From positions 2,480,001-2,544,000 of the forward strand of contig NZ_LWLN01000001.1 in the NCBI RefSeq assembly GCF_001953745.1: a DNA stretch of 64,000 bases, written 5' to 3'. The notes beneath the pieces are model-generated. The model had not been told where the DNA came from. It saw only the letters and a program-made list of their open reading frames with translations, and did not search any database. The position numbers were made by a program, and so were the translations under genes. This DNA is from Natrinema saccharevitans (GTDB lineage: Archaea; Halobacteriota; Halobacteria; Halobacteriales; Natrialbaceae). Positions 16,140 through 28,564 of the stretch are shown in pieces; the stretch's first letter is position 1; every line of letters starts with the position of its first letter.

Positions 16140-18044
16140 TCAGTCCCTGCCGTGCCGGGTCAGACATTTCGGGAGCCCGATCAGTTCGACCGGTTCGGAG
16201 TTGTCCGGCGAGTAGACGACCATCTGCCCTTTCTCCATGTAGGGGACTTTGGACTCGAGGTTGCTCGGAATGTTGACGCTCTTGATGGCGTCCTCGTCGC
16301 CGAGATTGAGGACGACGGTGGTGTTGATCTGCTTGAAGACGGCGTCGTGGATGTCCTGGGGGTCCTGCGTGATGAGAAAGAGGCCGAGCCGTTCCTTGCG
16401 GCCCTGTTTGGCGGCCTCGGTGAACTTGCTGATGACCTTGCCCGCCTGGACCGAGTCCGCGTCGGTCAGGAAGTTGTGGGCCTCGTCCATCCCCAGCAAG
16501 AGTGGGGTCTCCTTGATCCGGTCGTACTCGGGGTCGTTCGAGAGCTTCTGGTCGATGAGCAGCGAGGAGACAGCGAGGACGACCGTCTCCGTCGCCCGGC
16601 TGTCGTTGATGTGGTAGGTCGGGACGACGGTCAGCCCGCCGGGGCGGACGAAGTCACTGACCAGGTCGGTGATCGGACGGGCGTCCTGATCGAAGACGGT
16701 ATCGAAGCCCAGCACGCGCCGGCGGACGGCGTCGAAGGTCGCCTCGTGGACCCGGCCGGACTCGTCGAGTTCCTCGCGCAGGGCCGGATCGTCGAGGAAG
16801 GTCGTGAACTCGTCGTAGGTGCCGTCCGCTCGCGGACTCCGTCCGCTCGCATTGTCCGCGGAACTACGTTCCGCGCCACCCCCGTACTGCTTGCGAAATC
16901 GCGGCAGGAGCACGCTGACTAACGCGCCGTACTGGTTGTCGTTCAGTCCGCTGCCCGCGACCAGCCACGGGTTGTCGTGGACCATCGAGAACGGGATGGT
17001 GAACTCGACCTGCCGGGCGCGGTGGTGGCCCGCCGCGTACGACGCCGACCCGACCTTCGGGACGAACGCGGTCGTGTCGTCGTGGCCGCCGTAGGCGATG
17101 GCTTCGCGATCGAGGCGGCGCGCGAACTCGTCGTCCAGGTCGGGGTTGTCGTCGTGCATCTGGGCGTACTCGTCCTGGGGGTCGAACTGGACGACGGCGG
17201 GGGTGACCTCGCGGCCGTCGGCCATCGGGTAGGTCCGCTCGTCCGCGAGGTACTGTCGCAGGATGTTTTTCGCGCCGTGGGTCTTCCCCGATCCGGTCCC
17301 GCCGGCGATCAGCGTGTGCCGGAAGACCAGCGGATCGCCCGCGTCGTAGTCGTCTTTGAGCCGGTAATCGATGGTGGGCGGCGAGGCGGCGGTCCGGACC
17401 TTCTCGCCGCCGACCGAGAGGTGGCCCAGGAAGACCCCGTCGTCGGGCATCTTCAGCCCGGTCTTGATCTCGGCGGTGTCGTCGGCCTGCCGGATCACCG
17501 TCTGGGGTTTCGGCACGCGGTCGGTCATCCGTCGTTTCAGTTCCCCACCGTCGTCGTAGAGGACGGCGACGGGCTCGAGTTCGGCGACGAACTTGTAGTC
17601 GGACTCGTCGATGTCGTCGGTCCGCATCGCCCGGCGGGCGTGGATCTCGGTCGCGTCGTCGGCGTGGTACTGCTGGGCGTACTCGAGGCCGACGATCCGG
17701 CAGAACAGCGTCTCGCCGTCGGGGTAGGGCGCGAGCAGGTAGCTCCCGATGCGGACCGACGATCGGTTGCCGCGGGTGACGTAGGCCCGGAGGGTGGTGT
17801 CGTCGCCGTCCTCGGCGACGCGCAGTCCCTGCGAGACGCAGATGGTCCCGATGCCGACGTCCTCGCCGCTGGGCTCGACGCTCGTCGGTTCGAACTCGTC
17901 GGTCGTCGAACTCGTCGCCGCGCGCTCGGTCTCCGACGACGCCGGCGACGAGTCCGCCGCGTCCGCCGCGTCCGCCGCGCCGTCGTCGGTGTCGTCGGTG
18001 TCGGCGTCGGCATCGAAATCGCCGAAGTCTCCCAGATCGCTCAT
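16140..18044 (-). CDS. herA: HerA-type ATP-dependent DNA helicase/translocase
   Basis: A 634-residue protein. It has an acidic disordered N-terminus (to about 70), a HAS-barrel-like β domain, and a RecA-like FtsK/HerA ATPase core. Walker A is GGTGSGKTHGAKN, Walker B is LLLGMDEAHNF, and ITQDP and the arginine-containing C-terminal region complete the core. HerA forms a hexameric pump that works with NurA in resecting double-strand breaks. NurA is encoded 2.4 kb away (20483-21760, same strand). Within the core, residues encoded around 16824-16875 form an in-frame insertion (GAERSSADNASGRS) made by hairpin DNA, reported separately. ATG 18044 (MSDLGDF) is chosen over 18071. Confidence 0.9.
   Translation of the reverse strand: MSDLGDFGDFDADADTDDTDDGAADAADAADSSPASSETERAATSSTTDEFEPTSVEPSGEDVGIGTICVSQGLRVAEDGDDTTLRAYVTRGNRSSVRIGSYLLAPYPDGETLFCRIVGLEYAQQYHADDATEIHARRAMRTDDIDESDYKFVAELEPVAVLYDDGGELKRRMTDRVPKPQTVIRQADDTAEIKTGLKMPDDGVFLGHLSVGGEKVRTAASPPTIDYRLKDDYDAGDPLVFRHTLIAGGTGSGKTHGAKNILRQYLADERTYPMADGREVTPAVVQFDPQDEYAQMHDDNPDLDDEFARRLDREAIAYGGHDDTTAFVPKVGSASYAAGHHRARQVEFTIPFSMVHDNPWLVAGSGLNDNQYGALVSVLLPRFRKQYGGGAERSSADNASGRSPRADGTYDEFTTFLDDPALREELDESGRVHEATFDAVRRRVLGFDTVFDQDARPITDLVSDFVRPGGLTVVPTYHINDSRATETVVLAVSSLLIDQKLSNDPEYDRIKETPLLLGMDEAHNFLTDADSVQAGKVISKFTEAAKQGRKERLGLFLITQDPQDIHDAVFKQINTTVVLNLGDEDAIKSVNIPSNLESKVPYMEKGQMVVYSPDNSEPVELIGLPKCLTRHGRD
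16857..16875. repeat. Perfect 8-bp hairpin with TAC loop inside herA
   Basis: CGCGGAAC, a TAC triloop, and GTTCCGCG make a perfect 19-base hairpin inside the coding sequence. On the coding strand the loop reads GTA closed by C-G, and the arm and loop are read as Glu-Arg-Ser-Ser. A second, tighter inverted repeat (GTCCGC-TC-GCGGAC) lies at 16824-16837. The same element type occurs in purC. Confidence 0.8.
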
Positions 18045-26337: not shown

Positions 26338-26423
26338 CTATCGTAGCCGCTGAAAGTCATTGCACACCTGATCGCACGACAGCGTTGCGATCAGTGTGTG
26401 AATCGTTTCAGCGGCTACGATAG
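26338..26423. repeat. 86-bp palindromic repeat, copy 1
   Basis: The outer arms CTATCGTAGCCGCTGAAA and TTTCAGCGGCTACGATAG are perfect 18-bp inverted repeats. Inside, CACAC-(C)-TGATCGCA pairs with TGCGATCA-(G)-TGTGTG around a short loop. It lies between metY and the next gene, so it can also act as a terminator hairpin. A diverged copy of identical length occurs at 62248-62333, which marks it as a dispersed element. Confidence 0.9.
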
Positions 26424-26461: not shown

Positions 26462-26851
26462 ATGGCAACCGGGATACTCACAGACGATGCGGCGGAGCAG
26501 ATCGTCGCGACCTGTCGGACGGCCATCGGCGACAGTCTCCGGTCGGTCACCTACTTCACCCGTGACGACTTCGAGCAGGTCTACCTGCGGGAGGACCTCG
26601 AGCGCGACGCCGACCTCTCGACGTTCATCGGCCACGAGTGGCGCGGCTTCAAGACGACTCAGACAGCCTACGAGGGGTCGGAGCTGGGCGGGTACGACTA
26701 CACGATCCGGGTCTTCGAGAACGGGTTTCTCATCCGCGTAACGAACGACAGCGAGGGGGTCTTCGCCACGACTGACGGCCTCACGGTCAAGGACTTCGAA
26801 GAAGTCGCGACGGCGCTCGATACGTTCCTCAGCGAGCGCGAAATCGACTAA
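26462..26851 (+). CDS. DUF7522-like protein (paralogue A)
   Basis: A 129-residue soluble protein: IVATCRTAIGDSLRSVTYFTRDDFEQVYLREDL, then YDYTIRVFENGFLIRVTNDSEGVFATTDGLTVKDFEEVATAL, described here by its two blocks. The second gene at 37723-38145 shares the blocks GDSLRSVTYFT/GDTLRSVVYFT and FENGFLIRV/FHEDGFVVRV, so the two are paralogues. I recall the family as DUF7522. It has no catalytic residues that I can identify. It overlaps the convergent gene at 26848 by 4 bases. Confidence 0.72.
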   Translation: MATGILTDDAAEQIVATCRTAIGDSLRSVTYFTRDDFEQVYLREDLERDADLSTFIGHEWRGFKTTQTAYEGSELGGYDYTIRVFENGFLIRVTNDSEGVFATTDGLTVKDFEEVATALDTFLSEREID

Positions 26852-27219: not shown

Positions 27220-27750
27220 ATGACCGACTGTCCCAATCCCGTCGCCGACGCGCTCGCGTCCCACGACGCGTTTACGGCCCGCGAAGACGCCTACGACCTC
27301 GAGACGACCGTCTTCGAAACGACTGTCACGGCCGACGAGGCCGACGGAAAACGCGACGGCCGGTTCGCGATCACCGTCGTCCTCCCGACGCTGGACGCGG
27401 CCGTCGCCGACGAAGTCGTCGCGCCTCCCGTCGAGGACGGCTGGTTCGAAACGCTCGAGCGACGGCTCGCGGACGTCTTTACCGTCGCCCACACGGACAC
27501 CCACGACGAGCCGGTCGTCGAACGCGACGACAACGAAGTCAGGGTCCGCCTCGAGTACACCGCCTGGGACGCCGCCGAGGGCGTCGCGGACGCCAAGGCC
27601 CTCATCGAGTTCGTCGAGGGCACGTTCGCACAGGGGATCATCCCCGGCTACGAGTATCAGGCCGAAGCGGCGACGCTGCTCGAGAACGCCCAGAACAGGG
27701 GCCAGCAGGCCGCGGACGGCGACGGAAATAGCGGCGGGATGCCGATGTGA
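27220..27750 (+). CDS. DUF5813-like haloarchaeal protein
   Basis: A 176-residue acidic protein, recognised as the haloarchaeal DUF5813 family from ADALASHDAFTAREDAYDLETTVFETTV and the central EDGWFETLERRLADVF segment (parts of a continuous region). The C-terminus has IIPGYEYQAEAATLLENAQNRGQQA and ends in GGMPM. No enzymatic signature is seen. It is immediately followed by the 27753-27801 hairpin and the hairpin cluster. Confidence 0.75.
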   Translation: MTDCPNPVADALASHDAFTAREDAYDLETTVFETTVTADEADGKRDGRFAITVVLPTLDAAVADEVVAPPVEDGWFETLERRLADVFTVAHTDTHDEPVVERDDNEVRVRLEYTAWDAAEGVADAKALIEFVEGTFAQGIIPGYEYQAEAATLLENAQNRGQQAADGDGNSGGMPM

Positions 27751-27752
27751 AC

Positions 27753-27801
27753 CTAAATTTTGCTCTGCGGGCCGCCGTAGGCGGCCCTCGGCAAAATTTA
27801 G
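27753..27801 (+). terminator. Strong stem-loop after the DUF5813-like gene
   Basis: CTAAATTTTGC (27753-27763) pairs with GCAAAATTTAG (27791-27801). An inner perfect GGGCCGCC-GTA-GGCGGCCC hairpin lies at 27769-27787. It begins three bases after the stop codon, as expected for a transcript 3' end. Its GTA triloop closed by C-G matches the hairpin family downstream. Confidence 0.7.
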
Positions 27802-27839
27802 TATAAAAGCCTCCTCGCTCCCGATGGTCGCTCGTCGGC

Positions 27840-28333
27840 CCGAGCGCACAGCGCTCGGTGAACGGCGTCGCTCGGGTTCTCCGAACCGCTCGCTCGCCGA
27901 TATACTATTCGTGGAACGGTTCAGTGTAGTTTAGCAGCCGGGAGCGGGGCTCGAGCAGACGCGAGAGCCCTGCGACCCGACGGAAGAGCAAGCTCTTCCG
28001 AGCGGCGAGGGACCAAAGGTCCCTCGAGCAGTCGGCGCGAAGCGCCGACGACCTCGCGGAAGCGAAGCTTCCGCTCAGCGGGGGAAGGCAGGCCCTTACC
28101 TATACTCACCGCGAGCGACCGCAGGGAGCGAGCGGGCCGACGACTGATGTGAGTGACTGAAAGGAACGAACGGAAGGAGGAGTGCTTTTGGTCCAGCTTT
28201 TACCGAGGGACGCCGCGCTGTGCGGCAGCTCCGCTGCCGTCAGCGCGGCAGACCGTCGTTCGAGACGGCGAAGCCGTCTCGTGATCACGGAAGACGCTAC
28301 GCGTCTTCCGAACGACAGCGTAAAAGGTGGATC
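27840..28333. repeat. Cluster of short perfect hairpins between convergent genes
   Basis: No gene is seen here. Perfect hairpins (arm length, loop) are at 27840-27858 (8, ACA), 27875-27887 (5, TCC), 27981-28000 (9, AA), 28006-28026 (9, AAA), 28031-28049 (8, GAA), 28056-28074 (8, GAA), 28212-28249 (outer 9, inner 7 with TCC), 28261-28281 (9, GAA) and 28288-28310 (10, TAC). The last three sit inside a larger closing stem, 28192-28203 with 28320-28331 (11 of 12 paired). Most loops read as C-GNA-G on one strand. Confidence 0.85.
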
Positions 28334-28564
28334 TTAGTCCATCGCGATGTACGTCTGCGTGTCCTCGACGCCCTCGATAGCCTGAATGTGGGTGGCGGTG
28401 ATCTCCTTGACCTTCGCGGGCGTCTCGACGCTGGCCTTGGCGATGAGGTCGACGTCGCCGGCGACGATGTGAGCCGACTCCACGCCCGCGATCGATTCGA
28501 TGCTGTCTCTGAGCCGATCCGCCTCGCCCGTGTTCGCCTTGATCATGACGAATGCCGTAACCAT
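28334..28564 (-). CDS. Stand-alone Lrp/AsnC ligand-binding (RAM) domain protein
   Basis: A 76-residue protein consisting only of a RAM domain: MVTAFVMIKANTGEADRLRD, ESAHIVAGDVDLIAKA, and VEDTQTYIAMD. There is no DNA-binding HTH, so it probably oligomerises and binds an amino acid or nucleotide to modulate a partner. Its ATG overlaps the stop codon of the upstream trkA gene (TGATG), implying translational coupling. Its stop abuts the multibranched hairpin element at 28192-28331. A paralogous RAM protein lies on the other side of trkA. Confidence 0.88.
   Translation of the reverse strand: MVTAFVMIKANTGEADRLRDSIESIAGVESAHIVAGDVDLIAKASVETPAKVKEITATHIQAIEGVEDTQTYIAMD

Follow-up and report, generated by a model that had tools for sequence, protein, structure and literature searches.

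The hairpins that crowd one convergent gap of the Natrinema saccharevitans genome (G000) reflect a loop bias that is real, genome-wide and specific to the C-GNA-G class, and they do not stand alone but belong to modular cassettes, fixed in their linkers and order, that occur both in a repeat, here called element A, and in protein genes. The window, that is, the whole stretch of DNA analysed here, comprises 64,000 nucleotides. We put at about even the chance that the cassettes are made, inverted and kept perfect by fold-back of single-stranded DNA and template switching, with GNA tips working best.

The gap lies between a DUF5813 gene and an Lrp-like gene, and contains two inverted copies of element A, one per convergent gene. 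The strand antisense to the gene is referred to as X.

27220-27750, plus strand: DUF5813 gene (PF19130, E 1e-54), upstream of element A copy 1.
27753-27896, plus strand: element A copy 1, shortened, 3 nt past the stop codon.
27753-27801, plus strand: stem P1 of copy 1, CTAAATTTTGC / GCAAAATTTAG, enclosing the hairpin 27769-27787 (C-GTA-G).
27840-27858, unstranded: perfect hairpin CCGAGCGC-ACA-GCGCTCGG.
27936-28330, minus strand: element A copy 2, that of the Lrp-like gene; the folding strand (X) is the plus strand.
28193-28330, unstranded: stem P1 of copy 2, CCAGCTTTTAC / GTAAAAGGTGG, enclosing the hairpins 28223-28239, 28261-28281 and 28288-28310.
28334-28564, minus strand: Lrp/AsnC ligand-binding-domain gene (PF01037), upstream of element A copy 2.

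Nine perfect hairpins, none of which overlap, were found in 27753-28331; their arms measure 7-10 bp. They lie at positions 27769, 27840, 27981, 28006, 28031, 28056, 28223, 28261 and 28288, with the loops GTA, ACA, AA (2 nt), AAA, GAA, GAA, TCC, GAA and TAC in that order. Read on the opposite strand, TCC in the hairpin at 28223 is GGA and TAC in that at 28288 is GTA, so that six of the nine have a C-GNA-G loop on one strand. Together with two hairpins in purC and one in a herA-like gene, the proportion is 9 of 12. The preliminary description of this DNA had spoken of about ten perfect hairpins in the gap and of C-GNA-G loops in 10 of 13 when purC and herA were included; the hairpins are real and the proportion is close, with both counts slightly lower. 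The three exact instances of GCGAAGC that it had reported were recovered in the hairpins at 28031, 28056 and 28261.

Loop classes were counted in a 1.26-Mb sample of G000 that was split into coding and intergenic DNA (223 kb intergenic) by a self-trained gene caller, scoring hairpins with perfect arms of at least 8 bp and a loop of 3. Intergenic DNA yielded 62 such hairpins compared to 8.6 expected (seven-fold), and C-GNA-G loops made up 37 of these 62 versus 2.2% in an order-3 Markov null (p about 1e-45, a value that is too small because it treats hairpins as independent and many sit in repeated cassettes). The C-GNA-G excess over intergenic composition nulls was more than 20-fold. Coding DNA showed little triloop excess under the null used for the intergenic total; against within-gene synonymous shuffles, C-GNA-G hairpins were found 15 times versus 2.3 (6.4-fold), other coding triloops reached 1.4 to 1.6-fold, and coding C-GNNA-G tetraloops showed no excess (2 versus 1.7). 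The effect size and the coding result stand despite the non-independence of the hairpins. Enrichment of C-GNA-G over other triloops relative to shuffled sequence, which had been proposed earlier as a check on the loop rule, was thus borne out in this sample. In two other haloarchaeal families, the intergenic bias was present at lower density (5 versus 0.16 and 3 versus 0.08), and a loop bias in their coding DNA was not clear. Although convergent gaps make up 17% of gaps, they held 23 of 46 GNA hairpins. C-GNA-G loops match the most stable DNA mini-hairpins known; since the ViennaRNA DNA parameters contain no GNA bonus, this stability argument rests on published chemistry.

Hairpins with a loop length of 9 were also strongly over-represented in the intergenic DNA of the same sample. 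One inverted repeat with such a spacer, CTGATCGCA-N9-TGCGATCAG, lies at 26368-26394 of the window upstream of the gene at 26462 and has several further intergenic copies within the sample; it looks like the putative operator of a regulator.

Element A extends well beyond this gap. The gap sequence matched 30 places in the G000 genome, iterative nhmmer searches recovered about 17 copies of the element in the 1.26-Mb sample, and most copies begin 1-9 nt past the stop codon of a co-oriented gene. At the orthologous gap, the copy following the Lrp-like gene was present in nearly all congeners with conserved gene order. A covariance model built from the element A core detected it in all 29 genomes of the genus, with 1-29 copies each, and in 107 of 121 genomes of the family, as well as weaker yet multi-copy relatives in other families. 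By record name, the carriers are Natrinema, Haloterrigena, Natronorubrum, Natronococcus, Natrialba and relatives; a pattern match in Labedella (L175) was dropped, as the covariance model did not confirm it. Some sites are kept across genera and follow genes that we take, from protein ends read by eye, to resemble those of ribosomal protein L10e, a DNA polymerase subunit and transcription factor S. Rfam curated covariance models gave no match at gathering thresholds across the window. These searches reveal that most genomes of the family carry, behind genes, a conserved structured element previously without a name; it may have a role at gene 3' ends. In G015 (locus L073), the orthologous element behind the DUF5813 gene appears to be split by a stretch of other DNA that may be a transposase gene. 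A second palindromic intergenic family, with a GTTGCCACGATAGCAG centre and AATCGGCTGGGGAGG arms, bears the same hairpin cassettes as element A and was seen on contig C1 of G000 near 201874, 227850, 242911, 352112, 2186111 and 3184341.

Comparison with sister species captured the steps of cassette gain, cassette loss and loop flipping directly. Within copy 2, four hairpins form a single insertion:

27978-28078, unstranded: four-hairpin insertion of 101 bp (27981-28000, 28006-28026, 28031-28049 and 28056-28074), which the sister species G012 and G025 do not have.

Conversely, G012 carries a 49-bp double-hairpin insertion that its sisters lack. The four-hairpin block, joined by the linkers AGCGG, AGCA, GACCTC and TCA, recurs together with these linkers at the same place in other element A copies of several genomes, and parts of it recur at another element A site and in protein genes. 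A typical cassette consists of two hairpins and spans about 45-50 bp, sometimes comprising four hairpins, and linkers such as TGATGA and TCATCA occur beside AGCA and GACCTC. A second cassette is found at stem P2 in some element A copies and at P3 in others. One cassette word, CGAGGGAYC-NNN-GRTCCCTCGAGC (at most one mismatch), was found 36 times in 18 of 29 genomes, at element A sites and in genes, compared to zero times for the reversed control. In G012 and G025, which are 92% identical here, the arms CGAAAGGCGC/GCGCCTTTCG are shared and the loops are TTC versus GAA, an exact inversion; identical arms enclosing a loop and its reverse complement were seen elsewhere too (GAA/TTC, GTA/TAC). Cassette loops occur in both orientations, with GNA 17 times on X and 23 times on the other strand. 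Triloops predominated in the 61 elements compared, and the seven tetraloops were all different, none being UUCG or a standard GNRA loop. Wobbles in cassette arms were few, and one and the same position was filled by different perfect arms in different species. At two loci (L097 1136-1400 and L398), cassette hairpins lie beside an apparent tRNA gene accompanied by repeats of partial tRNA ends, an arrangement like that of an integration site.

Cassettes have also entered protein genes, two of them in the window:

40232-40276, plus strand: 45-bp double hairpin in frame in purC (hairpins 40228-40246 and 40250-40268), shared by G000 and G001 alone.
16832-16882, minus strand: 51-bp double hairpin in frame in the herA-like gene, present in G000 only among 27 genomes compared.

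The purC insert is identical in G000 and G001 and absent from 27 congeners, three of which have a 96% identical PurC; this patchy insertion may have spread via inter-species recombination. Outside the window, the gene at C1:2180731 carries, in 5 of 25 genomes, a 45-bp double hairpin of the type seen in the gap, with loops decayed in some carriers, and the gene at C1:33998 has a 45-bp insertion common to G000 and G015. All four coding insertions (45, 51, 45 and 45 bp) keep the frame open and are patchy among close relatives, and each length is divisible by three, as reading-frame selection demands. They represent a route by which protein genes acquire short in-frame segments. In two of them, a host hexamer in the first arm is mirrored inside the insert around a 7-nt GNA tip (TGTCGA around GCGTAGC in purC, CGCGGA around ACGTAGT in herA), which suggests fold-back copying, albeit in two cases and dependent on the alignment. 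Another double hairpin of the CGAGGGA type lies within a long acidic open frame (L400; G000 C1:3415781-3415804).

The region is a mosaic of two layers. The first is element A itself, a conserved structured repeat directly after stop codons whose core folds on X; the second consists of the small hairpin cassettes placed in the joints of element A, in the other palindromic family and, without loss of frame, within protein genes. In fold-back of single-stranded DNA with template switching, a hairpin whose tip is a very stable C-GNA-G mini-loop would form on one single strand, and a polymerase would copy one arm from the other, yielding perfect arms and allowing the loop to invert, so that a dedicated transposase may not be needed. 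Template switching has been reported to yield perfect arms, stem extension and inverted loops (PMC8794818), and perfect arms together with extended stems and inverted loops are indeed what it predicts. The earlier proposal that consistent loops with variable arms suggest selection for, or a mechanism generating, single-stranded DNA folds fits in so far as perfect arms around varying loops, and loop flips within unchanged arms, agree with a process at the DNA level; its single-stranded state is a conjecture, the hairpins proved to be parts of modular cassettes, and the core fold also agrees with RNA. Speaking against fold-back, no insertion with a clear template source for the entire cassette was caught. 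The shared linkers and the fixed hairpin order look like copying of a ready-made unit, for which template switching alone is insufficient, and this whole-unit copying, by recombination between copies or by some enzyme, is the weakest part of the explanation.

A second explanation is that the cassettes are non-autonomous mobile elements moved by a hairpin-recognising enzyme (an HUH/Y1 transposase or another recombinase), with perfect arms and loop flips as by-products. Copies scattered over several types of site, the conservation of linkers and of hairpin order, and a copy number ranging from 1 to 29 inside one genus are all in line with it, as is the insertion of SMR-type repeats of Haloquadratum into palindromes (PMC3119063). 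However, Y1_Tnp (PF01797) had no match in 8 of 29 congeners that bear 9-29 copies of element A, a distribution that led us to reject dependence on a RAYT enzyme. In addition, a consistent target duplication was not seen by eye at six insertions (the four coding ones, the 49-bp and the 101-bp insertion), no autonomous copy was found, and arm sequences vary freely, which an end-recognising enzyme would forbid. Neither terminal inverted repeats nor IS605-like boundaries were recognised in the cassettes. We regard an enzyme of this kind as a rather unlikely driver.

The core of element A in copy 2 comprises two stems that fold on X:

27936-27973, plus strand: core stem P4 on X with tandem G.A pairs, GCGGGGCTC-GA-GC-AGAC-GC-GA-GAGCCCTGC.
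28109-28135, plus strand: core stem P3 on X, CCGC-GAGCGA-CC-GCA-GG-GAGCGA-GCGG, with tandem G.A pairs and a C-GCA-G triloop.

Covariation in P3 and P4 amounted to 202 two-sided cells versus 50 in shuffles, and none of 500 shuffles reached 202. The general form of P3 is CCGC-GA-NN-GA-..GNA..-GA-NN-GA-GCGG; its outer tandem G.A pairs were identical in 69 of 69 copies, and the pair between the tandems switches from C-G to T-A. Sheared G.A pairs and GNA triloops both require purines on one and the same strand, and both motifs are very stable in oligonucleotides. Core folding is confined to one strand: the P3 loop read GNA 30 times on X and never on the other strand, and G.T wobbles in P4 numbered 43 on X versus 11 on the other strand (22 versus 5 when re-counted in a strand-neutral way). 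P4 was perfect in 20 of 71 copies and has a longer loop than the cassettes, whose arms were about 90% perfect in a crude count. Folding that is strand-specific and includes G.T wobbles is as compatible with RNA as with single-stranded DNA.

Selection on RNA, a third explanation, would make element A a 3'-end terminator, stabiliser or processing signal, with all hairpins serving a folded transcript. The position just past stop codons of co-oriented genes, the orthologous sites conserved within the genus and across genera, the covarying stems with their wobbles on X and the enrichment in convergent gaps all agree with such a function. Yet cassettes occur inside coding genes too, their triloops appear in both orientations with few tetraloops, and sister species differ in their hairpin sets at one site. 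Moreover, the core pairs on the antisense strand, and no conserved promoter-like (TATA-like) box was found upstream of it on X, which weakened the case for an independent X-strand transcript. Our search of the open-access literature yielded no paper that combined all aspects of haloarchaeal 3'-UTR stem-loop termination. RNA selection as the overall explanation appears improbable. That GC-rich composition and codon usage explain the hairpins with no special process has next to no probability and was rejected: GC content does stand at about 66-67%, and coding DNA has a mild excess of perfect hairpins whatever the loop length, but the intergenic and coding nulls rule this out and cassettes are inserted as whole units.

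Taken further, fold-back and template switching could amount to a genome-wide, transposase-free process in haloarchaea, in which GNA mini-hairpins seed fold-back synthesis and cassettes proliferate, invert their loops, repair their arms, build element A across the family and add in-frame peptides; we offer this wider picture tentatively and hold it to be possible rather than probable. The notion that hairpin DNA templates itself becomes testable in culturable archaea.

Hairpin-forming repeats are known in bacteria and organelles. No prior report of haloarchaeal REP-like elements was found in the open-access literature, nor did we come across elements of the present kind described from archaea. 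Like REP/BIME sequences with RAYT, the hairpins described here are palindromes dispersed after genes and between convergent genes (PMC3733652), here also inside genes; unlike REP/RAYT, they form double-hairpin cassettes with GNA triloops and do not depend on a Y1 transposase, and no REP-type GTAG or CGTC tag was seen by eye at the hairpin foot in the cassettes. They share with Haloquadratum PATEs, MITEs and small mobile repeats, of which SMR-A inserts into palindromes, the character of transposase-free dispersed haloarchaeal repeats (PMC3119063), and differ from all of these, as described, in the one-strand-folded core and the in-frame coding insertions. Template-switch hairpins likewise show perfect arms, compensatory changes, inverted loops and a preference for DNA-stable loops (PMC8794818), and the exact loop inversion over unchanged arms between G012 (TTC) and G025 (GAA) is of this kind; those mutations are described as single events in RNA genes, whereas here a dispersed cassette family shares linkers. 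Rickettsia palindromic elements (RPE) are palindromic units in frame within protein genes as well (PMC10969869), but, compared by description, they are about 150 bp long and comprise ten families, whereas the double hairpins here measure 45-51 bp with varying arms and a constant loop type. Finally, the double-hairpin or repetitive hairpin-forming elements of fungal and sponge mitochondria and the GC clusters of yeast mitochondria are short GC-rich hairpins dispersed between and inside genes, in which arm pairing is kept, loops vary and sets differ between close relatives (PMC2800124). In the same manner, paired hairpins here are present or absent as a unit among relatives (purC, the herA-like gene, C1:2180731 and the 49-bp insertion of G012), and arm sequences change while pairing is kept; an archaeal chromosome, the C-GNA-G rule, the inverted loops and fixed-order strings in a conserved 3'-end repeat set them apart. 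The cassettes are best placed near the mitochondrial double-hairpin elements and RPE, as an archaeal variant with a loop rule of its own.
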